From contig VGOZ01000012.1 of the NCBI GenBank assembly GCA_016875715.1, positions 1 to 52,069 on the forward strand: 52,069 nucleotides of DNA, read 5' to 3'. The notes beneath the pieces were generated by a model, which saw only the letters and a program-made list of their open reading frames with translations, searched no databases and was not told the DNA's origin. The stretch is from Chloroflexota bacterium. GTDB lineage: Bacteria; Chloroflexota; UBA6077; FW602-bin22. Below, in pieces: positions 30,189-45,920 of this stretch; within the stretch, counting starts at the first letter, position 1; every line of letters starts with the position of its first letter. Both the position numbers and the translations under genes were made by a program.

Positions 30189-32531
30189 TCACGGAACGTT
30201 GAACCGCTCGGCGATGAGATGATCCGATCCGTCTGCCCGCCGCGCTCGGCGCCCTGTCGTGTGATCATATAGACCAATAATGACACGGTAAGGGCCATCT
30301 GGAAGATCTCCCACGGCGAGCGCGTACTCGGACGTGAAATCCTCCCCCGGGAACCACATGTTCGTTGGAACCGCCGCCGCCGGCACGTCGACCTGCGCGA
30401 AAACCGAGTTGCCCGTGGTCGGGTTGACGCCCTCGCCGATCATTTGCACGAATGTGGTGAGGGGTCGCGGTGATGCCTGGATGGCCCGCCAGTGCGCGCG
30501 CACCACGTATGGCTCGGAGCCCGGGCGGTGCGACGGCAGTGCGATCGATCGCAGCATGGCGAAATCGCCAAAGATGGCGATCGAGGCCAGCGACTCCGGC
30601 GAGGCAGGGATCGCGGCCGAAGACCCACCCGCAGACCCCGGTGACCGAACCCTCACGGTACCGGCCCACGTCTCCGCGTAGGAACCATCTGACATCGTCC
30701 GGCCGATTGTGAGGCCGTAATGGCCGGGTGGCAGGTTGGTCCGGAGCGGGAGGATGTGCTCCGCGCGCACGAGGTCACGGGATGGCCAGTCGGCAGCCGG
30801 ATAGTCCGGCCTCAGGGTGTACTCCGCTTGCACGTATGCCCGTCCCGCCTGGTCGCGCAGGCTGACCCGGCTCGCGACGTCGGCGGGTCCGGAGCCCTGC
30901 CAAAAGGATGCGAGGTGGAGGGACTCCCCGGCGGAAGTCTCATTGACCCAGCGATCGAACCCGATGAGCGCCGGCTTGCCGGTCAATGGTGCAACGTACT
31001 TCGGCGTCGCGCGCGCGGCTCGTACGGAGCGGTCGGCATCTCGCGAGAACAGCGCCAACCGCTTATTGTCGACCTCGATCTCCGAGATCAGGCGCGCCCG
31101 CCGCTCCACCGCTCGCCTCACGTTCCCGTCCGGGTCAATGTCGTACGCACCGTTCAGGGTGAGCAGCCAAATCGAATCATGCTCCGCGAACCATTCGTCC
31201 GCCAGTGCCGCTGCAGACGCCTCGGTCTGGCGCGTGTGCGTCGTCACCCCGAATCGTGCGAGTCCAGAAGGGGCGTGATAGAGGAAGACGGGCCAGTCCC
31301 AGTCGGAATAGAGCGCGACCGCGTCACCTGGACGAGAGTAAGCCCGCAGATAGGCCGCAAGAGTCTCGTAGTTATCGGTTCGCCATCGGTTCTCGAGCAG
31401 TTGGCCCGTCGTCACGCATGAGAGTGCAATCCAGGCAAGCGCCACGACGCGGCCGACCCACGGCAGCCGCGACGCGACGAGAGCGATCCCGAGAGCGAAA
31501 AGGATGCTCGCATGCGGAGTGAACAGCGTCACGTAGCGCACTGAGAGGACGGGCCCATACAGCACCGGGTTGGGCAACGCCATCGCGTAGATCGCGAGGG
31601 GCGCAAGTACAACCGGGGCGTAGAGCGCCACAACTGCCTCCCTGGTCGGCGCCCTCGCGCCCCTACGGGGAGCGGGTCGCCACGTCGAGGTGATCTGTGG
31701 CACAGCCGGCAAGACGAGCACTACGAGCACAACAACCGTGACGGGAGTCCACGGATCGATATGGGCCGAGATGCCGAATGCCGTCGCGGTGAGAGCAGCC
31801 CGCAACCAGAGGATCAGGTCAATAACGGTTCCGGCCGCGGGAGGAGAGCGCACACTGCTCAGGAATAGCGTGAGCCAGGGGACGAAAGACAGGAGTACGA
31901 GAGCGTTAGTGACGCACCATCCAATAGCGATGCGCCACGGCGGAGGCTTCCGGAGCAGATGCTGCCAAAGAAGCCACCCCGCACACCCGATGGTGAGAGT
32001 CAGCGGAACGAGTCCGAAGGAGTAGAGCGTATGCAAACCCACTGACACGATGACGCCGTATGCGGCCCATTGAGCCCAGGCTCGCCCTCCGCTCGCGAGA
32101 ATGGAGATGAACAGCAGTGTCGCCGCGATGGCGAGTACCGTGATGAGCGTGTACATCCGGGTCTCTTGCGACAGTTCCACGTGCAGACGATTCACGGCCA
32201 GGAGCCACGCGGCGAGGAGCGACACCCGCGGAGAAGCGGCCGTTCGCGCCAGTCGGTAGGTCAGCGGAACGGCGAGAGTCCCGAGCAGAACCGCTGGGAA
32301 TCGATAAGCCTCAGGAGACTCACCGGCGATGACTCGCCAGGCCTTGAGAAGCCAGAAGTAGAGCGGCGGATGGACGTCGCGTACCGTCCACTGGATCCCA
32401 TCCGCCAGCGACATTCGGGCGACGAGCACGCTCGCGGCCTCATCCCACCAGATGTTGTGCTCACCAAGGCGATAGAGGCGGAGGCCAAATGCGAGCGCTA
32501 CGGCAGCGATCAACAGCGGACGCGTCATCAA
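30189..32531 (-). CDS. GT39/ArnT-like polytopic glycosyltransferase with C-terminal beta-rich modules
   Basis: 780 aa; LGEHNIWWDEAASVLVARM...VHPPLYFWLLKAW; many TM segments; C-terminal module QMIGEG...VFAQVDVP...DGPYRVIIGLYDHTTGRR. Confidence 0.85.
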   Translation of the reverse strand: MMTRPLLIAAVALAFGLRLYRLGEHNIWWDEAASVLVARMSLADGIQWTVRDVHPPLYFWLLKAWRVIAGESPEAYRFPAVLLGTLAVPLTYRLARTAASPRVSLLAAWLLAVNRLHVELSQETRMYTLITVLAIAATLLFISILASGGRAWAQWAAYGVIVSVGLHTLYSFGLVPLTLTIGCAGWLLWQHLLRKPPPWRIAIGWCVTNALVLLSFVPWLTLFLSSVRSPPAAGTVIDLILWLRAALTATAFGISAHIDPWTPVTVVVLVVLVLPAVPQITSTWRPAPRRGARAPTREAVVALYAPVVLAPLAIYAMALPNPVLYGPVLSVRYVTLFTPHASILFALGIALVASRLPWVGRVVALAWIALSCVTTGQLLENRWRTDNYETLAAYLRAYSRPGDAVALYSDWDWPVFLYHAPSGLARFGVTTHTRQTEASAAALADEWFAEHDSIWLLTLNGAYDIDPDGNVRRAVERRARLISEIEVDNKRLALFSRDADRSVRAARATPKYVAPLTGKPALIGFDRWVNETSAGESLHLASFWQGSGPADVASRVSLRDQAGRAYVQAEYTLRPDYPAADWPSRDLVRAEHILPLRTNLPPGHYGLTIGRTMSDGSYAETWAGTVRVRSPGSAGGSSAAIPASPESLASIAIFGDFAMLRSIALPSHRPGSEPYVVRAHWRAIQASPRPLTTFVQMIGEGVNPTTGNSVFAQVDVPAAAVPTNMWFPGEDFTSEYALAVGDLPDGPYRVIIGLYDHTTGRRARRADGSDHLIAERFNVP

Positions 32532-32534
32532 GGG

Positions 32535-35500
32535 CTACGGTTCGACCACGACACGGCCGATCGAGGCCGCATCTCCGTCGGGGCCGACCATCCTTATGCC
32601 AGTGTCCGATCGATAGAAGCCAAGGCGAATCTGATAGGAACCGCGGGCGCTCGACGGGATCTCGATTGCGTACTGGTCCGCGAACGTTTCACCAGCCTGC
32701 CAGGCGCGCGTCGGGTAATGTCCTGCGAGCGGCGGCCGGTCGCCGGTCGCTTCGGGTTCCGAACCGCTACCGATTAGGTGGGCGAACACTGTGAAGTCGG
32801 CGCCCGGATCAGCGTTGACGTGCCAGATCGGGCGGACATCGATCGTGTCACCCGGCCGAGGACGTTCAGGGAGCGGCACGGCGAGCCCTGCCAGCCGTAC
32901 GAGGCCGAAGTCGTGCCGCAGCGCCACTGCCGGAGTCGGCGAAGACCGCGCTGGTCGGACCTTGACGGTCCCGAGTTCAATCCAGTCGGGCTCCGGTCCT
33001 GGTGGCTCCCAGTGCAGCCGGCGCAGGTCGGTCCGCCGATAGACGCCCAGGACGAGGCGGCCGAGCGCCGGTTCTATCTTGTTGGGCAGGAAAGGCGCAT
33101 AGCGATCGTCGACCCGCTTTCCGGTCGCCCAGAGACTTGTCGGGGATAGTCCACGCCGCGGCCAGGCATCATCCTGGGTGACCATGCGTCCCGATTGGTC
33201 CAGCAACTGGACGGTCACGGCGTAATCGTCGAGCGGATCAGCGATCGCTTCCCAGCGGGTACGAACACTGAGGGTCGCTCCGGGATCGATCGTTGCGGCG
33301 ACACCGGCAGGCCCGCCGAGGGACGCTCCGGGTTGGGGTGTGGGCGGCCATAGGCGCTGCTCGATACGCGCCATAAGACGGTCGAGACGATCGCGCGGCC
33401 CGCGCGTTGGCGCGAGGAGATCTTCGGCCACGATCTCCGCCGATACGAGACGGATCGCTCCCGCGACGACCGGTCCGTCGCCGCCGCTATTGGGTGGCGC
33501 GGTGCCGCGACTGGATAGAGTGACCTGGCCCAGTGCGAGACCAGATCCGGACGCGTTCGGCGCCGCGCACGGGCACTTCTCAACCCACGTGACGATATCG
33601 CCGAAAGAGGGAGTCGCGTAGCCGTTCGGGTCGAAGAGGCCAACCGCGACCAGTACGTGCCCACCGGGTCTCGGGTCGATCAAGTCGAGGTCCAGTTCGT
33701 CTCGGATGAGGTAACCGGGCATCCACGATGTTGTTGGGCGTAGTCCGGCGCGCGGTCGAGTGTCCCGTCGTGCCACAACTCGCCCCTCGGAGTCGATGAG
33801 TCGGATCGCGACCCGTAGATCTCGATGGATGGGGTTGTCGGCCGTCCAGATGAGTGAGACCCGGGTACCGGAGATCGCCGCGTCGATGACTCGTGCGCCT
33901 CCGGAGAATCCGCCGACGTCCCGACCGTGCGCTGCGCCGCCCTGTCCGGAAAATGGAGAACCGATACCCCAGAACACACCGGCGACCGCCGTAATCACTC
34001 CAACCAGCGCCAGGCGCCGCCTGTGCGCGCGGACGGCCAGTACGATGAGGATCAAGAGTCCAAGAAAAGTGATGGCCCGCGCCAGGTCCCCCCAGGCTCC
34101 AGATCCCGGTGACGCCATGATCTCGGTGGTTCCCGGTGGGACCCGGATGCGCCATAGACCCCGGTGCGGCTCGGCGGTCGATTCGAGGATGTGACCATCG
34201 CGGGACGAGGCGGCCCAGAGTGGAAACGCATGCTGGTCGATGACGATCTCGCGCTCGTCGTCGGACCGGTCAACCGAGATGCGGAGTGAGCCGGCGCCGT
34301 CCTGTGTCGCGCCAACGATTCGCGCTGGAGGTAGAGCGAGGGCGGGAGGATCCCCCAGCCGAGACCAGAAGTCCGAAGGAACGGTCCGTGGCAGGAACTC
34401 TCCAAGTGTGGACGAGCCGATGAGGCGCCTATCCACCTCAATACGACCCAATGCGGAGAGATTAACCTCGTCCGGGCGCAAGTCAAGGAGCGTCGGCTTC
34501 AGGTCGATTCCCGATGAGTAGATCCAGAGCGCGGTAACGGCCACAGTTGTCCATAGTGCGGATCGTGGCGCAAGCCCTTTCACCAGCCCCCCTACGAGCA
34601 TCGCGGACGCTATTGTTGTCAGGCCCAATAGTCGGAAGGGGAACTGCACAAACCCCAGGATAGCGACTACTTCCCATAGAGGTCTAGAGATATCAATCTG
34701 TAGCAGCAGTGACGCGATCATGAGCCCACCGAAGAAGGCGCCGAGGCCGGGCGATCCTCTAGCGACAAGAATTGATCCACCAATGAGAGCCAGGACTACC
34801 TGGAGCATACCCACGCGAAATAGCTGAGATAGTTCAGGGTTGAATCCGTATCTGTACACAAGTGAAGGCTGAATTACATCGAAAACAGAAGAAAAATGGT
34901 TTCGAAAATCGAACCAGCCTGTGACGAGAATCTCCCACCTGACCAAGTTCCTGTCAGCCAGTGCGGGGAGCCAGTAGAACGAGGACAGCATCAGCCCAAC
35001 TGTTCCCGCGGCAGCTGCACCGACGACGGAGATGAGCGGACAGGGGCTGGATAGCGAGATAATGCTTGCCCGTATCGCGACGACCGGTATTAATAACAAA
35101 AGCGTAATGTTGTGCGTGAGCGCCAGGGCCGTCGTCGTAATGGATGCGACCAGGAGTCGACGCGCGTCAGGGGTTCTTGCCACACGCTCGAATGCGATCA
35201 ACAACCACGGGACGATCGCCATTCCAAGGAGTTCGGGCAGAGCGGCGCGATACCATAGATCGATCAGTGTGTATGGAGCCGTTACATACGTTAATGAGAC
35301 CAGGAACGGCGCATGACCCTCACCAGTGGACCTCCCAAGAACATATGCGCCTGCGGCGCCGATCAACAGCGACACAACCGCAACGCCAACGAGCCCTACC
35401 AGCGGATTGGCACCAAGAACTTGTAGGCCAGCACTAAGAAACGATGCTGTGGGTGCATAGAAATGAAAGACCGGGTATCCGAGGCCCGCGGCGAATTGAG

Positions 35501-35687
35501 GGGACCACCGAGGATAGAGGGTTTGTGATTCGAGTGTGCGTTCCAGCGAGAGCGCCCGGAAGAGATGATCGCCTCCGTCATCGCTGCCCCAGAACTGGCC
35601 CGCGGTGAGGGGGAGCCATGCGAATGCCGTGGCGGCGATCAAGGCGATCGCGTGTACGGCCACCAACCTTCGATGGCGGCGGTTCAT
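32535..35687 (-). CDS. Large polytopic membrane protein (PTPS-related/YfhO-like GT-C candidate) with three C-terminal beta-rich modules
   Basis: Start at MNRRHRRLVAVH (ATGA overlap with upstream gene); GSDDGGDHLFRALSLERTLESQTLYPRWSPQFAAGLGYPVFHFYAP. Confidence 0.8.
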   Translation of the reverse strand: MNRRHRRLVAVHAIALIAATAFAWLPLTAGQFWGSDDGGDHLFRALSLERTLESQTLYPRWSPQFAAGLGYPVFHFYAPTASFLSAGLQVLGANPLVGLVGVAVVSLLIGAAGAYVLGRSTGEGHAPFLVSLTYVTAPYTLIDLWYRAALPELLGMAIVPWLLIAFERVARTPDARRLLVASITTTALALTHNITLLLLIPVVAIRASIISLSSPCPLISVVGAAAAGTVGLMLSSFYWLPALADRNLVRWEILVTGWFDFRNHFSSVFDVIQPSLVYRYGFNPELSQLFRVGMLQVVLALIGGSILVARGSPGLGAFFGGLMIASLLLQIDISRPLWEVVAILGFVQFPFRLLGLTTIASAMLVGGLVKGLAPRSALWTTVAVTALWIYSSGIDLKPTLLDLRPDEVNLSALGRIEVDRRLIGSSTLGEFLPRTVPSDFWSRLGDPPALALPPARIVGATQDGAGSLRISVDRSDDEREIVIDQHAFPLWAASSRDGHILESTAEPHRGLWRIRVPPGTTEIMASPGSGAWGDLARAITFLGLLILIVLAVRAHRRRLALVGVITAVAGVFWGIGSPFSGQGGAAHGRDVGGFSGGARVIDAAISGTRVSLIWTADNPIHRDLRVAIRLIDSEGRVVARRDTRPRAGLRPTTSWMPGYLIRDELDLDLIDPRPGGHVLVAVGLFDPNGYATPSFGDIVTWVEKCPCAAPNASGSGLALGQVTLSSRGTAPPNSGGDGPVVAGAIRLVSAEIVAEDLLAPTRGPRDRLDRLMARIEQRLWPPTPQPGASLGGPAGVAATIDPGATLSVRTRWEAIADPLDDYAVTVQLLDQSGRMVTQDDAWPRRGLSPTSLWATGKRVDDRYAPFLPNKIEPALGRLVLGVYRRTDLRRLHWEPPGPEPDWIELGTVKVRPARSSPTPAVALRHDFGLVRLAGLAVPLPERPRPGDTIDVRPIWHVNADPGADFTVFAHLIGSGSEPEATGDRPPLAGHYPTRAWQAGETFADQYAIEIPSSARGSYQIRLGFYRSDTGIRMVGPDGDAASIGRVVVEP

Positions 35688-37642
35688 CCTCGGATCGTGA
35701 CGTGAGCCACAGTCACTTCGTTGGCGCTGGATCCCGTGAGGTGCACGCGCCGCCCCGAGCCAGCATCGTACAGACCCGTGACCAGCCTGGCAGGCCCCAA
35801 CGACCCGAGCGGTATCTTGACCAGGTGTCGGTCGAAGACTAGATCTCCCCGTTTCCACGTGGATGTCGGCGATGAGGCGTCGCCGGGGATGGAGTCGTTT
35901 TGCGCCAGCGTACGTGACTCGCCCTGGCGCAGATGAAGGAACACCGTATACGACGCCTCGACTGGGTCTTCGACGTACCACCAGAGATCGACCGAGATCG
36001 TCTCGCCGCCGTGCGCTTCTGCCGGGACGTCTACCCGCACGAGCGATAGGGAACTGAAGGCGGCGATCCTGCCGGTCGGGGGTGGGCCTGGCTCGGCGGT
36101 CAAGACGATCGCGATCGGACGCGTGCTATCCCTACCGCTGATCGACGTAACGATGACGTCTGATGAGAGACGCGCTGCGACTGCGGAAGCCCCGACTGCG
36201 TCCTCCGCAGGCAAGACATAGTGAGCGCGTTCGCCGCCGAGAGGGATCACCGCGGCCCGACCCAGGTCGAAACTCGCGATCGCCGCATCTCGGAGCAGGA
36301 AGCTGAAGGTGAAGTCCCGCGCGTACAACGGTGCGAGAAAGACACGATCGCCGGCCTCCCTCAGTCGCACGACTGCCGCCGCGACGTCGACCTTGTCGCC
36401 CATCATGGCCAGGTAGGCTGCCTCGCTCGGGGCCCAGCGCGCGAAGTAGTCGTATGGCGCCAGGAGCATGGGTGGGATGACAAAAAGCGCCAGTAAGCGC
36501 CGGTCCCGAAGCGCCCGCACGACCGCATTGAACCCCAGCGCGGCGAGCCCAGCCGCGATTGGAGTGAATCCACCCAACCGCGAGAATGACGGGGGGTTGA
36601 CGGAGAGGACTGCGGGAGCGAGTGTCGCTGCAATCACCAGGAGAAGGAGGGTCGCCGGCACCATCTTCCTCGCCGCGACCACGACAAGTGTGCCAGCGAC
36701 CACTCCCACGGACACGAGCGGATCGAAGAGCGCTCGTTCGGGCAGGTTCTCCATCGCGCTGGTCGTGCCAACGACCGAGACGCCCAGGGCGGTACGAAAG
36801 ACGCCATGCACCAACGCACCCCATGGGTCGCCCCCGTGGACCTCGGGATTGGAGATCGAAACAGCCATCGTACGAAAATCCATCATCTCGCGGTGACCCA
36901 TGTAATAGATAAGCAATGGAGCTGCAATGGTTAAAGCGGCGAAGGCAGTAGCGAGCCATACACGGAGCAACGCGCCACGGTGTTCCGGTTTCCCGAAGCT
37001 GACGAGCGCCCCAATTCCGATTGCTGGGATCAAGAGTCGGGCCGAGGTATAGGTGTAGAGAGTCCCGCCAAGAAACGTGCCCGCGATCGCTCCATCGACC
37101 ACGGAGAAGCGCCTGAGCGCGCGCAGCGTGAAAGTGAGCGCAATGGTGAGTACGAGCGGCAACGTGATGACGCGGAGGCCGAGGCGACTGAAGTTAAGGA
37201 GCCAGTAGATTCCGGAGGCGCCCAGGGCTGCGCATACGCACCCCACGATCCACCAGTCTTCCCGCGCATAGATTCTCCCCAGTTCGCATCCGAGGAGATA
37301 GAGCGCGGGGATCGTGAGTAGCCCGAACACCAAGGCCGTGTAACGGGCTGCCAGCGCGTTCACGCCCAGCACGAGCGACGCAGCGGTCTCAGCGTAGATC
37401 ATCAGCGGCTCCCGCCCATTGTTCCGGACGAACCAGATGGGTCGTGCGCCCTCTCTCACCTCGATCACATCCTGGAGGTTTGCCGCGACGTCGAAGAAGA
37501 GGCCTGGGGGTACTCGGTCCAGGTCCCAAGTGCGAAGGCCGAATCCTGCGGCGATGATCGTCACCAGCAAGTACAGGCGGACGATCCCTGGTGTTTCGGG
37601 CTGCTCTCTGGAGATGATCTCACGTTCCAAAGTCAAACTCAC
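35684..37642 (-). CDS. GT39-like polytopic glycosyltransferase with C-terminal beta-rich module
   Basis: 652 aa; DRVPPGLFFDVAANLQDVIEVREGARPIWFVRNNGREPLMIY, multiple TMs, SYTVFLHLRQGE...GLYDAGSGRR. Confidence 0.8.
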   Translation of the reverse strand: MSLTLEREIISREQPETPGIVRLYLLVTIIAAGFGLRTWDLDRVPPGLFFDVAANLQDVIEVREGARPIWFVRNNGREPLMIYAETAASLVLGVNALAARYTALVFGLLTIPALYLLGCELGRIYAREDWWIVGCVCAALGASGIYWLLNFSRLGLRVITLPLVLTIALTFTLRALRRFSVVDGAIAGTFLGGTLYTYTSARLLIPAIGIGALVSFGKPEHRGALLRVWLATAFAALTIAAPLLIYYMGHREMMDFRTMAVSISNPEVHGGDPWGALVHGVFRTALGVSVVGTTSAMENLPERALFDPLVSVGVVAGTLVVVAARKMVPATLLLLVIAATLAPAVLSVNPPSFSRLGGFTPIAAGLAALGFNAVVRALRDRRLLALFVIPPMLLAPYDYFARWAPSEAAYLAMMGDKVDVAAAVVRLREAGDRVFLAPLYARDFTFSFLLRDAAIASFDLGRAAVIPLGGERAHYVLPAEDAVGASAVAARLSSDVIVTSISGRDSTRPIAIVLTAEPGPPPTGRIAAFSSLSLVRVDVPAEAHGGETISVDLWWYVEDPVEASYTVFLHLRQGESRTLAQNDSIPGDASSPTSTWKRGDLVFDRHLVKIPLGSLGPARLVTGLYDAGSGRRVHLTGSSANEVTVAHVTIRG

Positions 37643-40172
37643 CCAGGTCGGCGAAATCTGCCCGATCCTCGACTGGGACGCGCATCCCTCCGATTGGATC
37701 GTAGAGGCCTACCCGAAGACGCAAGGTCCCGCGCGCGCGTTCCAGCACGTGCGCGTCGTCGATGATGTCTCCCGCGATCCAGCCGTCGCTCGGAGATGCG
37801 CCATTCCCCGGGGCACCGTCATGTTGGGCCTGAATCGCCCCGGTGGGCGAAACCGCGTGTACGAAGACGTGAAGTCCTGTCGTGGACGGTGCGATCGCCT
37901 CCCACTGAAGAACCACACGACGCGCCGCAACATCCACTGTCGCCCCGCGAAGCACTGCAACCGATCCGAACCGAAGGTTCACCGGGATCGTCGGAGCTGT
38001 CGGTGACGCACTAGTCGGAACGGAGGAAACACGAATCGAGCCAAGCGGCAGAGTCTCTTCGGTGGATCCCGTCGTGATGCGCAGTGCGAGCTGGTACGCG
38101 CCCTCCGGCCGGAGCGCCCCCGCCGGGAGAGATGCCTGAATTCGATGAAAAGTGCCCTGGGTGGCCGCGGGAAGATCCCATTGTCGCAGCGGTACCCCGG
38201 CACGACTGGGGATCGCCTGGAGCGCCACGTGCGCGGACTCGGTCCGCCGTGCCTCGAAGATCAGCGTGGTGTACGCGGGCCGTCCCACGCCGATGTGCTC
38301 CGGGATCACCCACCCGACCAGCCTCCAGGCACCCAGGGTCGGTCGATCGTTCAGCGTCAGGTTGGCCAGGTCGGGGATCCAGATGCGGTCGGAGGGCACG
38401 ACCGTCACGTCGCCGAGCCGCGCGATCACGGTGTCGCGTCCGGACAGGGTGCGATCGTAGAGCGCGGCCTCGACGGTGAGGGAGCCACCCTGGAACCCAC
38501 CGTCGACCGCCACCAGCCACCGCACCTCGCCAGGTTCCACGACTTCGTCAATTTCGCCCCAGATGAAGCCGGATCGATCGACCAGACGTAGACGTAGTGC
38601 CAGACCAGGAGCGATCTCAGGAAGGCTCAGGCGAACGGGAACGAAGCGACCTGCCTCGATGGTCCGATTGGGCAACGCGGCCACCACCGCGTAGTCGCCG
38701 AGTCGAAGCGTCGCCCAGCGATCGGCTCCCGCGCCAGATGCGGGTGCGAACGCGTACAGTCGGCTGTTGGTCGTCCACCAGGCGCGGCTGCGGTACGAGT
38801 TCTCGGCAAGCCAGTTGAAGACGGTCAGATCCGGGTCGTAATCGCGCTCCGCGTACAGGATGAGCCACGTGAGATCGTGGCCAGCGATATCGCGACGGAG
38901 TTCCGCTTCGATGATCTCCCGGGGACTCCGCGCGATCTGCGGAATACGATGGACCGGCAGGTTCACGCCGCCCGCACCTCCGTAGTACTCGTACAGCGGA
39001 CTCTGGGACGATCCCGTGAGCACCACGGCATCACCGGGCCGCGCCAGCGCGTGGATGCGTCCAGCGCTCGCGCTGTAGCCGCTCCGCGAGCGGGACGGAT
39101 CGTGGGCACCCAATAGACCCGCGCCGCAGATGACGAACACTGCCGCGAGAGCCGCGGCGCGCGGGAACCTCCAGGGAATACGGGTCATGGCGGCCGCGAA
39201 CCAGATCAGCAGCGGTGGCGCAAGGATGGCCAGGTAGCGCTCTTGAAACATGGGCCGCCAGACCGACACGACCGCGCCGACCGCTACCGGTATCGCGACG
39301 AGCCACAGCAGGGAGCGGACATCGGCGGTGCCCCGGGCCGCGATCCCCACGAGGAGCAATGCCACGGCAGTGGCAGCCGAGGCAGTTTCCCAGGGATCGT
39401 CGGCCGCCCAGCCGGACAGGACGTGGGCAAATGCGGAACTCGCGACGCGCACGAAGTCAACGGTCCCCGGCAGAGCGCCGTAGTACGCGATCGTGATACG
39501 GCTGGCCATCAGGAGCCAACCTCCCACGATCGCTCCGACGATCGCCATGCCCGGTGCAAGCATCCGCAGAGTCGGAAGAGGTGGGTTCTGCGACCGTAGC
39601 GTGTGGTGGATGATGAACGCGGCCTGGCTGGCCGCGACGGTCAGCGTGAAATAGTGAGTCATCAAACCGATGGAGAGCGCTAGCGCCCACGAAAGGGCCG
39701 ACGCGCGCCGCCCGGTCCGCAGGGCTGCGATGAGCAGGTACCACGACGCGATCACGCCGAGAGACGCGATTGAGTACATGCGTGCTTCGGTCGCGTACCA
39801 GACGAGCAGGGGACTGACGCCTGTGAATGCGGCCGCGGCCACAGCCCCACGTCCGAAAAGCGAACGCGTGAGAACGTACGAGAAGGGCACCAGGAGAGTC
39901 CCTGCGACCAGAGACGGGAACCGCACCGCGAACTCGTCCGAGCCAGCCAATCGCATCCAGATCGTGAGGACAACGGGGAAGAATGGCGGATGCGGCTCGG
40001 CTTCCCTCAGGGTCGCGATCATCTCCGCGAACGAGCGGAGGCTCAGCGTGACGCTTGCCGCCTCATCGCCCCAGAGATCTCCGCGCGCCAGCCCGAGCCG
40101 GAGTCCGAAGGCGGCGGCGCAAAGTCCCACAACCGCGCTTGTTGTGAGTCTGCCCGACGTGCCAGATGTCAT
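37620..40172 (-). CDS. GT39-like polytopic glycosyltransferase with C-terminal beta-rich modules
   Basis: 850 aa; RGDLWGDEAASVTLSLRSFAEMIATLREAEPHPPFFPVVLTIW; C-terminal GLHVFVHAVSPTGAIQAQHDGAPGNG...GLYDPIGGMR. Confidence 0.85.
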   Translation of the reverse strand: MTSGTSGRLTTSAVVGLCAAAFGLRLGLARGDLWGDEAASVTLSLRSFAEMIATLREAEPHPPFFPVVLTIWMRLAGSDEFAVRFPSLVAGTLLVPFSYVLTRSLFGRGAVAAAAFTGVSPLLVWYATEARMYSIASLGVIASWYLLIAALRTGRRASALSWALALSIGLMTHYFTLTVAASQAAFIIHHTLRSQNPPLPTLRMLAPGMAIVGAIVGGWLLMASRITIAYYGALPGTVDFVRVASSAFAHVLSGWAADDPWETASAATAVALLLVGIAARGTADVRSLLWLVAIPVAVGAVVSVWRPMFQERYLAILAPPLLIWFAAAMTRIPWRFPRAAALAAVFVICGAGLLGAHDPSRSRSGYSASAGRIHALARPGDAVVLTGSSQSPLYEYYGGAGGVNLPVHRIPQIARSPREIIEAELRRDIAGHDLTWLILYAERDYDPDLTVFNWLAENSYRSRAWWTTNSRLYAFAPASGAGADRWATLRLGDYAVVAALPNRTIEAGRFVPVRLSLPEIAPGLALRLRLVDRSGFIWGEIDEVVEPGEVRWLVAVDGGFQGGSLTVEAALYDRTLSGRDTVIARLGDVTVVPSDRIWIPDLANLTLNDRPTLGAWRLVGWVIPEHIGVGRPAYTTLIFEARRTESAHVALQAIPSRAGVPLRQWDLPAATQGTFHRIQASLPAGALRPEGAYQLALRITTGSTEETLPLGSIRVSSVPTSASPTAPTIPVNLRFGSVAVLRGATVDVAARRVVLQWEAIAPSTTGLHVFVHAVSPTGAIQAQHDGAPGNGASPSDGWIAGDIIDDAHVLERARGTLRLRVGLYDPIGGMRVPVEDRADFADLGEFDFGT

Positions 40173-42037
40173 GCTGTGAGATTGATAGAGGTGAGGCGAA
40201 CGACGGTACCCTCCAGAATCGGCGCGTGTTCTGGACCGATCGGCTCGACCGCGCGCAGCGTGTCCGGCTCGTAGATGAGGAGATCGACGTTCAGAGTTGC
40301 TGGTGCATCGGCCGGCACCAGCAGCGCGTAGCGGTCGGCGAATGGCTGCTCCGTCATCGCGGGAAACGGACGGCTATCGCTGCCAGGCTTACGGTCGATC
40401 TGAGCGACCCTTCGTCCCGCCGGGTCGACCAGGCGTAGAGAGACCTTCCAGTCACCCGGCGCTGAGCCAGCGATGCTGCGCCATCGGATCTCCACGCCCG
40501 CCAGACGCCCACGCGTCGAGGAGTCGCTGGCGAGCGTCACGTCGATCAGTTCGACGCCCGGCCATCGCACGCCAACTGCCTGCCGTGTGGCGCCAACAGA
40601 TCCCGGGAGGAGGAACATCTGCATCCGCTGGCCCCGAAACCAGCGCGTCTCGGCCGGGTATCCGACCGCGCTCAGCCGCGTGGACGCCATAGCATCCGGC
40701 GCCGTCTCCCAGAACGGGAGATGTACGATAGTTCGAGGCCGCGCCCGAAGCGCGCCGTCGATAGCGCTGGCAACTTCTGCCGTTTCGGTCGCGATGGCCG
40801 TCTCGTGCGCGGTCTGACGATAGTAACCGTAGGCATCGGCCACACCCTGGCCCGTGATCAGCACGAGGCCGCCGGGCTCGACGCGCTCGGCGATCGCCCC
40901 GGCGATTCCCCTCCAGTCGGGCCGACCTTCGATGGTCCGGGATATCGCATCTGGCACGGAACTGGCCATGAGGACGGCGACCGCGCACGATGCGACCAGG
41001 GCGATTCGGCTCGGGACGATCCCAACGCCATAGGCGGCCAGTCCCAGATAGAGGGGAGCCGCCACGATGAGGTAACGCTCCTCGAACATCGGTCGAACGG
41101 CGAACAGCGCGAGCGCGGCCACTACGGGAACCGCCGCGGCCAACGGGAGCAGGACGGAGTCTGGTGCTGAACGAGCGTACTGAACCGCACGGATGGTGCC
41201 CAGAACGCCGAGGATCGCCAGAAGAACCTCGACTCCTGGGAGCCATCCCACTCCGCCAGCGGTCGCGAACGTCGTGATGGTACGGGCGAGGATGACATCT
41301 GCCGCCAAACGCTCCGGGAAATACCCCTGATACGCCAACAGCGCTGGCGACGCGTACGCCAGCCACGGGACGAACAGGGCCAGGACGAGCAGCGGCGCTG
41401 CGATGGAGGCGCGCCCGTGCAGCGTGCCCTGGCGCAGGCTGACGATGGCCGCGTGCGCCAGATGGGATGCGAGAGTGAGCGCTGCGTTCAGGTGCGTATG
41501 CAGTCCGCCGCTCATCAAGACTGCGTAGCGCATCCACCCGGATCTCTGGCCGGCGCGTTTCGCGGCTACCAGCGCCGCGGTCGCAAGCGTGGCAAGCGCG
41601 GCGACCATCGCGTAGTTGCGGGCGTTCTGTGACTGCAGAATTGCGTACGGATTCACCGCCAGGAACAGCGCGGCGACCAGACCGGCGCGTGTGCCGCCGA
41701 TCTCTCGTACCAGGCGCCAGACCGCAACGATCGTCAGGCAGCCGAACAGGACGGACGGGAATCTCAACGCATACTCGGTCCAACCGGCGACCTGCTCCCA
41801 CGCCCAGATTCCGAGGTAGTAGAGCAGCGGGTGCGGCTCGAACACGCGCGCCTGCTCGATGATCCACTGCGCACCTTCCTGGGCGTTCCGATGCATGAAC
41901 CACTCGTCACCGGTCAGGGTCGCCAGTCCGAGCCGGCGAAGCCGTAGTGCCGCGGCTCCGACGGTGATCGCGACGAGCACGGCAATTTCGCCGGACGTGG
42001 CTGGGGCGGCTGGCGTGCCGATGCCTCGCGGTCGCAC
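40169..42037 (-). CDS. GT39-like polytopic glycosyltransferase with C-terminal beta-rich module
   Basis: 622 aa; LATLTGDEWFMHRNAQEGAQWIIEQARVFEPHPLLYYLGIWAW, TMs, DWKVSLRLVDPAGRRVAQIDRKPG. Confidence 0.85.
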   Translation of the reverse strand: MRPRGIGTPAAPATSGEIAVLVAITVGAAALRLRRLGLATLTGDEWFMHRNAQEGAQWIIEQARVFEPHPLLYYLGIWAWEQVAGWTEYALRFPSVLFGCLTIVAVWRLVREIGGTRAGLVAALFLAVNPYAILQSQNARNYAMVAALATLATAALVAAKRAGQRSGWMRYAVLMSGGLHTHLNAALTLASHLAHAAIVSLRQGTLHGRASIAAPLLVLALFVPWLAYASPALLAYQGYFPERLAADVILARTITTFATAGGVGWLPGVEVLLAILGVLGTIRAVQYARSAPDSVLLPLAAAVPVVAALALFAVRPMFEERYLIVAAPLYLGLAAYGVGIVPSRIALVASCAVAVLMASSVPDAISRTIEGRPDWRGIAGAIAERVEPGGLVLITGQGVADAYGYYRQTAHETAIATETAEVASAIDGALRARPRTIVHLPFWETAPDAMASTRLSAVGYPAETRWFRGQRMQMFLLPGSVGATRQAVGVRWPGVELIDVTLASDSSTRGRLAGVEIRWRSIAGSAPGDWKVSLRLVDPAGRRVAQIDRKPGSDSRPFPAMTEQPFADRYALLVPADAPATLNVDLLIYEPDTLRAVEPIGPEHAPILEGTVVRLTSINLTA

Positions 42038-42053: not shown

Positions 42054-42635
42054 TCAGGCGGCTGGTGTCATCGTCGGCCGCGGCGTCGCAGTTCTCACCG
42101 CGGTCGCCGTCGGTCGCGGCACCGGCGGATCGTGTCGCCACTGCATCAGGTCGTTCAGCGCGAAGGCCGCCACCACATGGATCGTGTCTCCACCGTACGG
42201 TCGGACATACACGGAGCCGCCGTCGCTCGATCGGTCCCCGATCTCCAGTTTCGTGACAACGCCATCGTTCATGCCGAGTTCGAGCACGCCAACAGGTGGC
42301 GACAGCCCGAACTGACTCGGGTCACCGGCCGTCAGCGTGCGGGTCGAAGTCAACCGTGAGACCCTGGCGACGCTATCGTCGATGCGCCTCCTGTCACCGA
42401 AGCCTGACACGGCGTCGCGCAACTCCCAGCCACCCTCGACGCGCTCGGCCGTGTAGGCAGCGCCGCCTGTCCGATAGGTGACGCGCATGACCCGGTCGGT
42501 GGGGACGTTGAGGACCAGTGTGGTCGGACTCGGCGTGGGCAGTGGGGCCGGTCCGGTCAGGTCGAAGGCCCAGATCGCCCCGCCGACGAGCAGGCAGCCG
42601 ACGAGCAGGAAGGAAGTCAGTCGGTAGCGCGCCAC
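42054..42635 (-). CDS. DUF4340-like protein
   Basis: 193 aa; N-terminal TM, YTAERVEGGWELRDAVSGFGDRRRIDDSVARVSRLTSTRTL...FGLSPP; adjacent to GldG-like gene as in known ABC/GldG/DUF4340 clusters. Confidence 0.75.
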   Translation of the reverse strand: MARYRLTSFLLVGCLLVGGAIWAFDLTGPAPLPTPSPTTLVLNVPTDRVMRVTYRTGGAAYTAERVEGGWELRDAVSGFGDRRRIDDSVARVSRLTSTRTLTAGDPSQFGLSPPVGVLELGMNDGVVTKLEIGDRSSDGGSVYVRPYGGDTIHVVAAFALNDLMQWRHDPPVPRPTATAVRTATPRPTMTPAA

Positions 42636-44222
42636 TCAGCGACGGGTCCACCACACGATTCCGCCGATGAGGAGGAGCCCGGCGGGAAGGAACAGGGTGC
42701 TTATGAAGAGCAGGGTATTCTGCTGTGGTCCAGAGAGGATCAGACTTCTGTCCGTCACAGGCCGGGCACGTACGCTGATCAGCGACTCCTCCTCCGCAAG
42801 CCAGTTGACGGAGTTGACCGCCAGATCGCGATTACCGGAAATGAGCATGAACGATAGGAACGCGTTGGTCGCGAACGACCCGTTGCCAATCGCGACGATG
42901 CGCGTCGATCGATCCTGGGGGTGGCCGTCGCCCTGCGGTGGCCGCGAGCGCATCGACGTTACGGCGAGAGAGATCGGCCCATTGGTGTCCACTCCCGCAT
43001 CAAAACGCATTGTCGCTGGGTTCACAGGGCGGTCCGACTCGAGCCAGCTTCGGTCGGGGCTCGTCTGCGCGATCGTCTGCACCACGAGCGCCGGATCACG
43101 CTCGGCCCTGGGCGCCACGAGCAGTGATCCCGGAAAGACCGTGATGTATCGACCCGTCTGATCGATGCCGACGGTGCGCATGATCGGGTTCGGAGAGTAC
43201 CGAATCACAGCGGGGGAGAACGGGTCTCCCTGGAGGTTGAGTTCGAGATCCACAACAACGCCATCATCGACCTGGATCCCCCAGGTGCCGAGCAAGCCGA
43301 GCAGCTCGGGCGAGTTGCCCGGGGATCGCGGTTCGAGCATGACCAGCAGCTTGCCGTCCGCCACCAGGTACCGTGAGAGCGCCGCAATCTCCTGGGGCAG
43401 CAGCGGTTGGCGTGGCCGCGCCAGAACGACCACGGACGTATCCGCAGGCACGTCCGCCGCAGTGAGCAAGGAGAGCGCGCGAATCGAGTAGTTCTCGAGT
43501 TCGATCTGACGCTTCAGTTCGCTCGCGCCACCCTGGTCAAAACTATCGATATCGAGCTCGCCGTGTCCGGTCACCCAGATGATCCTCTTCGGTGTACCGC
43601 GCTGCAACTTGACGAGCGCGCTGGTCAGATCCGCCTCGTTCGCTCCGGTCATGTTCTGGCGTCGGCCCTCGGACTCGAGAATGGTGGTTCCGAAGGTCTC
43701 CACGCGGTACTCACGCGCCAGCCCGGGCATCTGGATCGGGTCGATGATCTGATAGGTGATCTGGGTCGTATGCCGCTGATACTCCTTGAGGAGATCCTCC
43801 AGTTCCTCGAGGCCTCCCTGACCGGGCTGATAGAAGGCCAGAACGCGTACGGGGCTATTGATGGTCTGTAACACGTTAATGGTCTGCGGACTGATGGAGA
43901 ACGCCTTGGTCTCGGTCAGATCCCAACGGTGCGAGAACCGGTTCGTGAGGATGTTCAGACCGATGACCAGGCCGAGGAAGGCGAGCGTCATCACGATCGT
44001 GTTCGTGCCGTGTTGGGCCTCACGGGAGACGATGGCCCGCCGGAGGTTGTCGGGACGATCGAGAAGGCCGTACGCGATCAATGCCAGGCCAGCGGCCGCT
44101 GGCGCGAGCACCCGCACATCGAGTGGATCGCCAAAGACGATGAGGACGCTCAACGCAGCTACTCCGAGCAGGACGCCGAGCCCCAGCGCGAGTGAAGGCA
44201 GGTAAGTGCGGAGCCTGCTCAT
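42636..44222 (-). CDS. GldG-like ABC-transporter auxiliary protein
   Basis: 528 aa; NRFSHRWDLTETKAFSISPQTINVLQTINSPVRVLAFYQPG...WVTGHGELDIDSFDQGGASELKRQIELENYSIRAL; C-terminal TM. Confidence 0.85.
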   Translation of the reverse strand: MSRLRTYLPSLALGLGVLLGVAALSVLIVFGDPLDVRVLAPAAAGLALIAYGLLDRPDNLRRAIVSREAQHGTNTIVMTLAFLGLVIGLNILTNRFSHRWDLTETKAFSISPQTINVLQTINSPVRVLAFYQPGQGGLEELEDLLKEYQRHTTQITYQIIDPIQMPGLAREYRVETFGTTILESEGRRQNMTGANEADLTSALVKLQRGTPKRIIWVTGHGELDIDSFDQGGASELKRQIELENYSIRALSLLTAADVPADTSVVVLARPRQPLLPQEIAALSRYLVADGKLLVMLEPRSPGNSPELLGLLGTWGIQVDDGVVVDLELNLQGDPFSPAVIRYSPNPIMRTVGIDQTGRYITVFPGSLLVAPRAERDPALVVQTIAQTSPDRSWLESDRPVNPATMRFDAGVDTNGPISLAVTSMRSRPPQGDGHPQDRSTRIVAIGNGSFATNAFLSFMLISGNRDLAVNSVNWLAEEESLISVRARPVTDRSLILSGPQQNTLLFISTLFLPAGLLLIGGIVWWTRR

Positions 44223-44226
44223 CTCA

Positions 44227-44940
44227 TTACGACCATCGTCGCGATTCGACCTTGCGCCATGTCAGGAAGAGCGCCGCTGCCGTCATAGAGAGGAAGTAGA
44301 CGATGTCCTTGGTGTCGATCACACCGCGCGTGAGATCGTTGAAGTGTGGGTAGAGAGACACATAGCGAAGTACATCTGAAGATGTTCCGCCGAGGACACC
44401 CGAGAGGGCGTCAACCAGGTAAAGGAGCAGCAGGATTGCCCACGAGATCGCCGCCGCCACGATCTGGTTCTGGGTGAGCGACGACGCGAAGAGGCCGATC
44501 GCGGTCAGCGTCGCGCAGAACAGCAGCGCGCCGAGATAGGTTCCGACGATGCCGCCCACATCCGGGTTTCCGTACACGAGCAACAGGAAGGGGAAGTAGA
44601 GCGTAACCCCGAGGACGACGGCGAAGAAACCAAGCCCGGCCAGGAACTTGCCGAGCACGATCTCGAAGTCGCGGATCGGCGCGGTCAGAAGCAGTTCCAT
44701 CGTCCCGTTGCGAGCCTCTTCGGCTAAGAGACGCATCGTGATGATTGGCGCGAACAGCAACAGGATCGTGAAGAGCGCACCGAAGAGCGGTCTCACCGTC
44801 GCTTGACGCGACGAGATGACGCTGTTGGCGAAGAGAAAGCCCGCGATCAGGATGAACGCCGCGATGAGGATGTATGCGACCGGACTTCGGAACTGCGCCG
44901 CGAGTTCGCGACGCGCGATCACGAGGATGGGCGTTCTCAT
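44227..44940 (-). CDS. ABC-2 type transporter permease
   Basis: 237 aa; IARRELAAQFRSPVAYILIAAFI...MRLLAEEARNGTMELLLTAPIRDFEIVLGKFLAGLGF. Confidence 0.9.
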   Translation of the reverse strand: MRTPILVIARRELAAQFRSPVAYILIAAFILIAGFLFANSVISSRQATVRPLFGALFTILLLFAPIITMRLLAEEARNGTMELLLTAPIRDFEIVLGKFLAGLGFFAVVLGVTLYFPFLLLVYGNPDVGGIVGTYLGALLFCATLTAIGLFASSLTQNQIVAAAISWAILLLLYLVDALSGVLGGTSSDVLRYVSLYPHFNDLTRGVIDTKDIVYFLSMTAAALFLTWRKVESRRWS

Positions 44941-45920
44941 GTCGCAACCTCATCGGTGGGAATCTGGCCCTCGCCCGCCGCGCCCGTTGGTTCGGTGGTT
45001 GTAACGGCCAGGAACACGTCCTCGAGCGATGCGCTGCTCGCCTCGAGGGCGAAGAGATCCCACCCTCCAGCGATCAAGCGGCGAACGACCTCCGGCCGAA
45101 CGTCGCGATCCGACGCAGTCTGCACTCGGACGGTCAAGACCGATGCGGCCCGGGTCTCGACCCGTGCGTCCGCGACCCCGGCAACACAGAGGATCGACGC
45201 AACCAGACCCTGCTCCGGTTCGCCCACCCGAACGCGGAACTGCTGGCCACCGGCAATGTGTCGAGCGAGAGATTCGGGGTCGTCGACCGCCACGACCCTA
45301 CCGCGGTTGATGATCACCACTCGCTCGCACGTCGCGCTCACTTCGGGCAGGATGTGCGTGCTCAGGATCACCGTGTGTTCCCCGGCAAGCGACCGAATGA
45401 GGTTTCGGGTTTCAATGATCTGACGCGGATCCAATCCAACCGTGGGCTCGTCCAGGATCAGGATCGGCGGATTGGCGACGAGAGCCTGTGCGAGTCCCAC
45501 ACGCTGGCGGTAGCCTTTGGACAGTCTTCCGATGATCCAGTCGGCTCGATCGTCGACTCGTGCCTTCTCGATTGCGTCATCCACCCGCGACGAACGGAAC
45601 TTCGCCGCCACACCCTTGATGTCCGCCACGAATCCGATGTAGTCGCGGACCGTCATCTCGTGGTACAGCGGGACGTTTTCCGGCAGATAGCCGATCTGGC
45701 GGCGCGCATCCAGTGAGTGCTCGAAGACATCGAAGCCGTTGATACGAGCCGTGCCTGACGATGCGGGCATGTATCCCGAGAGGATCCGCATCGTTGTGGA
45801 CTTCCCCGCGCCATTCGGGCCGAGGAACCCCAGAATCTCGCCTCTGGCGACCTGGAAGGTCACGCCATCGATGGCCGTCTTCTCGCCGTAGCGCTTTGTG
45901 AGACTGTCAACCTCGATCAT
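44937..45920 (-). CDS. ABC transporter ATP-binding protein
   Basis: 327 aa; Walker A GPNGAGKST, signature LSKGYRQRVGLAQAL, Walker B ILILDEPTVGLDP. Confidence 0.97.
   Translation of the reverse strand: MIEVDSLTKRYGEKTAIDGVTFQVARGEILGFLGPNGAGKSTTMRILSGYMPASSGTARINGFDVFEHSLDARRQIGYLPENVPLYHEMTVRDYIGFVADIKGVAAKFRSSRVDDAIEKARVDDRADWIIGRLSKGYRQRVGLAQALVANPPILILDEPTVGLDPRQIIETRNLIRSLAGEHTVILSTHILPEVSATCERVVIINRGRVVAVDDPESLARHIAGGQQFRVRVGEPEQGLVASILCVAGVADARVETRAASVLTVRVQTASDRDVRPEVVRRLIAGGWDLFALEASSASLEDVFLAVTTTEPTGAAGEGQIPTDEVAT

Follow-up and report, generated by a model that had tools for sequence, protein, structure and literature searches.

A C-terminal beta-sandwich module shared by GT-C-type membrane proteins of Chloroflexota bears a conserved motif in its last copy

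The stretch of DNA analysed here (the window) comprises 52,069 nucleotides of contig VGOZ01000012.1 from a Chloroflexota bacterium (assembly GCA_016875715.1). Five overlapping or closely spaced genes on its minus strand (30189-42037) encode membrane proteins of 780, 1058, 652, 850 and 622 amino acids, called proteins A to E, whose C-termini are all formed by one homologous module of ~130 amino acids. Proteins A (30189..32531), D (37620..40172) and E (40169..42037) are glycosyltransferases of the GT-C superfamily, whose members transfer sugars from polyprenyl carriers at the outer face of the membrane. They score 46-56 bits against the Pfam family PMT_2 (cut-off 26.1), with E-values of 8.9e-15, 7.1e-12 and 9.5e-15, respectively. 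Protein B (32535..35711) reaches 39.7 bits against PTPS_related (2.9e-10; cut-off 26.4) and has a weak TMEM260-like match. Protein C (35684..37642) is GT-C-like; a Pfam scan matched it to no family, and its ortholog is matched by a profile based on protein A. The model of protein A, the only one of the five modelled at full length (predicted local distance difference test score, pLDDT, 83), features eleven helices, read as membrane helices, and an alpha/beta domain followed by two beta-sandwiches. It matches the fold of AglB, STT3, PglB, ArnT, AftA and DPY19. In the first outer loop of protein A, two adjacent acidic residues (D30-E31) are conserved in at least 90% of 41 sequences.

The kinship of the five C-termini had been proposed in an earlier note made from the letters of the window alone. 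A profile built from 107 modules, all from outside the window, finds every one of them at about 5e-12 or better. The terminal modules lie at 30192..30584 in protein A (independent E-value, i-E, 4.5e-14), 32538..32918 in protein B (2.6e-28), 35687..36070 in protein C (2e-26), 37626..37982 in protein D (between 3.9e-19 and 1.3e-26) and 40172..40576 in protein E (5.1e-12), all on the minus strand and within ~20 bases of the coordinates first given for them. The modules of proteins C and E are the only ones in their chains, that of protein E being the most diverged of the five. The three tandem copies announced for protein B are present (32538-33914), with copy 2 at 32952..33332 (7e-32) and copy 1 at 33510..33914 (4.7e-24) preceding the terminal copy 3. 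Further diverged copies had been claimed for both the 780- and the 850-amino acid proteins. Protein A does have one (30642..30998; 8e-11), which AlphaFold2 models as a beta-sandwich spanning residues 512-629, whereas the two supposed copies of protein D (38004..38711) give non-significant values of 0.22 and 0.27. The sequence pattern by which the modules had been recognized lacks its PTxxW part in protein E. Smith-Waterman comparison of seven copies places most pairs 4-23 standard deviations above shuffled sequences (0.7 for the weakest pair); soluble stretches immediately upstream of the modules score about 0.

The new result of this analysis is that a motif of seven residues is restricted to the last copy of the module and is lost from internal copies. 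In model numbering it consists of F46, H48, Q59, D61, G102, Y104 and R111. In an alignment that leaves out the modules with which the loci were found, an aromatic residue occupies position 46 in 81% of last against 45% of internal copies and position 104 in 92% against 58%; the corresponding values are 74% and 30% for H48, 76% and 39% for Q59, 94% and 50% for D61, and 83% and 55% for G102. W33 and G77 are equally frequent in both types of copy and W74 differs little. When all positions are ranked, the six most terminal-specific are H48, F46, Y104, D61, R111 and Q59. In two further sets the contrast recurs at all seven positions, G102 of the smaller set being the sole exception. Of 139 multi-module proteins, 113 have their strictly best motif match in the last copy and 16 show a tie, a count that includes modules which served to find the loci. 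In the window, the terminal modules of proteins C and D have the full motif (7/7), that of protein A carries Q instead of H48 and keeps the six other residues, and that of protein B keeps F46, H48, D61, G102, Y104 and R111. The internal copies of protein B have T46 and Q48 (copy 2) or A46, R48 and T111 (copy 1). The sole module of protein E is of the internal type and misses most of the motif. Strand alternation in the model suggests that the motif residues lie on outward strand faces.

The module is present in 26 of 31 related genomes, with up to 61 detected copies in one of them, and in 123 of 301 evenly drawn Chloroflexota genomes. Scanning one genome per species across ~85,000 species yielded 214 confirmed relatives. 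Restriction to the phylum was judged on the best 80 of these 214, every one of which is titled Chloroflexota, Chloroflexi or a group within. The family is Chloroflexota-centred and widespread in the phylum. Scans of phage, plasmid and viral-contig collections gave no relative at the settings used. Pfam and NCBIfam scans showed the module to be covered by no family, single weak Pfam matches to DUF6211, MazE-like and CcmD being judged chance; searches of PDB sequences with the module profile returned no significant match, and a literature search found no description of the C-terminal module in Chloroflexi. The genome of the window itself has 22 module matches on ten contigs. Two of its module frames (G000:C10:28940-29254 and G000:C43:20377-20598) are broken by stop codons and represent decayed copies or assembly errors. 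The same genome also has a cluster of eight PMT_2-type genes (G000:C1:39332-75922; frames of 458-1711 amino acids) in which no module was detected.

The best 80 loci hold 310 modules in 163 reading frames. In all of the 130 complete carriers the module is C-terminal, usually preceded by 7-10 predicted transmembrane segments and in no case followed by one. One copy is found in 31 of them, two in 76 and three in 23. The families recognized among 46 carriers are PMT_2 (34), PMT (9), DUF2142 (7), GT87 (2), TMEM260-like (2) and DUF2079 (1); PTPS_related and others also belong to the GT-C-type families that carry the module. Two carriers are not GT-C proteins. One is a DUF3485 (EpsI-like) protein with one transmembrane segment and two terminal modules (L139:4360-6396), which adjoins PEP-CTERM proteins and brings the module into use at an exosortase-type locus. 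The other is a predicted lipoprotein with two modules and a lipobox-like LTGC near its start (L087:4972-6393), encoded between two CotH-kinase-like genes. The terminal motif is complete (7/7) in both.

Several indirect lines support an extracytoplasmic position of the modules, as the earlier note had proposed. The C-terminal part of AglB, STT3, ArnT, AftA, PglB and DPY19 is extracytoplasmic, and the model of protein A resembles AglB, STT3, PglB, ArnT and AftA. With its helices oriented N-terminus in and C-terminus out, inside loops are denser in lysine and arginine than outside loops (0.24 versus 0.08) in every one of 41 homologs, as counted family-wide on residues near the helices with the AlphaFold2 helix boundaries of protein A. 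The DUF3485 protein and the predicted lipoprotein, both exported, also place the module outside the membrane. Crude single-sequence hydropathy and positive-inside counts mostly favoured the opposite orientation, but they missed membrane helices and included the charges of the large C-terminal part; the family-wide counts favour the C-terminus outside.

The beta-sandwich expected from the sequence pattern is recovered by structure prediction. The AlphaFold2 model of the protein C module, computed from 114 sequences, has nine strands and a pLDDT of 96.2. A Foldseek comparison with the PDB agrees, its matches being immunoglobulin (Ig)-like and E-set folds: NPC2 (3e-5), the carbohydrate-binding domain of Wzt (8dky; 1.3e-4), RhoGDI and GH3 enzymes. 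The module can be described with confidence as a predicted Ig-like/E-set beta-sandwich of no named family. Weak Pfam matches among 114 modules are to Wzt_C (20), ML (13), DUF4832 (11) and MalQ_N (10).

Wzt_C (PF14524) has no match among window proteins or window modules, and the best of the 114 modules (E = 1.7e-4) is not above the curated cut-off. Profile-profile alignment by hhalign with Wzt_C domains from related genomes gives a probability of 87.7% (P 3.4e-6); ten controls with shuffled columns reach 0.1-1.8% and the reversed profile 0.3%. In Wzt, Leu300, Asn313 and His350 line the cap-sugar pocket (PMC9445017). H48 and D61 of the module pair with Leu300 and Asn313 in the profile alignment, and the shared G-x-Y-x-L motif pairs the strand of G102 and Y104 with Ala348 and His350; the alignment is remote and the residues differ. 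Wzt numbering was checked by counting along the 7k2t chain, which runs one ahead of that in PMC9445017. Three of the four top terminal-specific residues (H48, D61, Y104) align with sugar-pocket residues, and terminal specificity is higher at Wzt-equivalent positions than elsewhere (p = 0.0096). The likeness to Wzt_C concerns the fold and could stem from a shared fold without shared ancestry.

A tree of 31 modules from different genomes sorts the copies by enzyme and by position, showing that modules were inherited along with their enzymes, in line with the duplication together with the enzymes that had been proposed for them. The module of protein E, which has little of the terminal motif, falls among first modules from orthologs of E and D, suggesting that protein E lost its outer modules. 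Three modules are present in the E orthologs of other families within the order.

The five genes follow directly, on the minus strand, a DUF4340 gene (42054-42635) and genes for an ATP-binding cassette (ABC) transporter, which code for a GldG-like/ABC_transp_aux protein (42636-44222), a GldF-like permease (44227-44940) and a GldA-like ATPase (44937-45920). The order gldF-gldG-DUF4340-E-D-C-B-A is identical in a genome of the same family (G001, L166). Two further genomes of the order, G006 and G010, retain E-D-C, the ABC genes being missing at the G006 locus. On the other side of the cluster, positions 132-29514 are a housekeeping context that encodes EF-G, S12, rpoC/rpoB, a Mur ligase, methionyl-tRNA synthetase, DNA polymerase I, Fpg and OGG-type glycosylases and CTP synthase.

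The earlier note had offered carbohydrate binding or partner docking as the role of the module. The likeness to Wzt and the terminal-only motif favour binding without deciding between a glycan and a protein. A near-identical motif, predicted to form one face, occurs in GT-C families unrelated to one another as well as in the two non-enzyme carriers; their ligand is therefore probably a common one, either a shared envelope glycan or a common partner protein. A shared glycan appears the better candidate since three motif residues align remotely with the sugar pocket of Wzt and since the C-terminal domain of EmbC, a GT-C enzyme, binds acceptor glycan (PMC3044687). The reading put forward tentatively here, at a probability of about 45%, is that internal copies serve as spacers and that the last copy captures a ligand that many enzymes share, the likeliest being a common envelope glycan or the growing acceptor polymer. 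GT-C enzymes working with polyprenyl-linked sugars on the outer membrane face would have had modules added head-to-tail at their C-terminus. A spacer arm reaching outward would be the main role of the internal copies, and the last copy would bind its ligand via the conserved face, whose strands would match the cap-sugar site of Wzt in position. The acceptor would be held outside by this last copy as the membrane-embedded catalytic site works on it.

Several results weigh against glycan capture by the last copy. Trp362, a key residue of Wzt, has no clear equivalent in the module, and overall conservation is not significantly higher at Wzt-equivalent positions (p = 0.10). NPC2 and RhoGDI, binders of lipids and prenyl groups, are among the strongest Foldseek matches, so that the fold does not fix the ligand. 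The site is also near-invariant across GT-C families, an unusual trait in a binding module specific to an acceptor and one that a common protein partner would explain equally well. Docking of the terminal module to a common envelope protein or assembly factor, with the predicted surface patch as a protein-protein interface that gathers GT-C enzymes, the lipoprotein and the DUF3485 protein, would account for this near-invariance, for the intact 7/7 motif of the two non-enzymes and for the keeping of the motif by the outermost copy only. It is rather unlikely, though to be taken seriously: the loci inspected, short of a systematic search, showed no constant partner gene, and the motif is rich in aromatic, histidine and aspartate residues at sugar-site-equivalent positions.

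The variation from one to three copies, together with the loss of the motif and retention of core residues by internal copies, would suit a stalk with a purely structural role, keeping the enzyme at a distance from the envelope or packing it there, and without any ligand. A conserved surface motif in the terminal unit only is not expected of such a stalk, and this explanation is unlikely. Binding of a lipid, with the module acting like ML/NPC2 or RhoGDI domains to shield or present the donor's polyprenyl chain, is improbable. The enzymes are expected to use polyprenyl-linked sugars, NPC2 and RhoGDI are top Foldseek matches and 13 of 114 modules weakly match the ML domain; but the terminal-specific residues are polar or aromatic and, judged by strand alternation, would point outward rather than line the space between the sheets, the module consensus has no cysteines, and GT-C folds hold the lipid inside the membrane domain. 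It is more improbable still that the terminal module packs on the catalytic domain of its own enzyme as a regulator. Its position, appended directly to the enzyme and C-terminal to the extracytoplasmic alpha/beta domain, would suit that role, yet the complete motif persists in the lipoprotein and the DUF3485 protein, which have no GT-C domain.

An unnamed and very abundant domain family marks many surface-glycosylation enzymes of a phylum whose envelope chemistry is poorly known, and offers a handle for recognising and annotating GT-C and other envelope proteins in Chloroflexota genomes. Capture of a common ligand by the last copy leads to a compact testable prediction, seven residues of one module that can be aligned to a solved sugar-binding domain. 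A more speculative idea, somewhat doubtful at present, is that the terminal module is a shared envelope recognition tag: its one site, conserved on the outermost copy only, would bring many unrelated GT-C enzymes, the lipoprotein and the PEP-CTERM-linked protein together on a single surface polymer or assembly factor. If true, the tag would be a common 'address' for surface glycosylation in Chloroflexota.

Among known systems, the lipid-binding E-set domains of ML/NPC2 and RhoGDI are the best Foldseek matches by E-value (3e-5 to 8e-4). For the ML fold, the value of 3e-5 goes along with a TM-score of ~0.55 and a root-mean-square deviation of 4.5. The ML/NPC2 family has conserved disulfide cysteines; the modules have no cysteine in their consensus, no significant sequence relationship to these domains and conserved residues predicted on the outer face. 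AglB/PglB/STT3 and ArnT share the fold of the full-length protein A model, including the membrane domain, but their C-terminal domains are not this module. The C-terminal domain of Wzt (PF14524; A. aeolicus 6o14, 8dky) resembles the module in its E-set/jelly-roll fold (predicted for the module), in a remotely similar profile, in conserved residues whose aligned positions on the sheet correspond and in its place as C-terminal appendage of an envelope-glycan machine. Wzt_C is cytoplasmic, attached to an ABC ATPase and forms a strand-swapped dimer, while the modules are tandem, outside the membrane and on GT-C membrane proteins. Like the modules, the carbohydrate-binding module-like domains of the mycobacterial arabinosyltransferases EmbC and AftD are extracytoplasmic C-terminal beta domains carried by GT-C enzymes. 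The PDB sequence searches gave no significant match of the modules to them, and the modules are a separate, repeated family found on many GT-C families and on non-enzymes.

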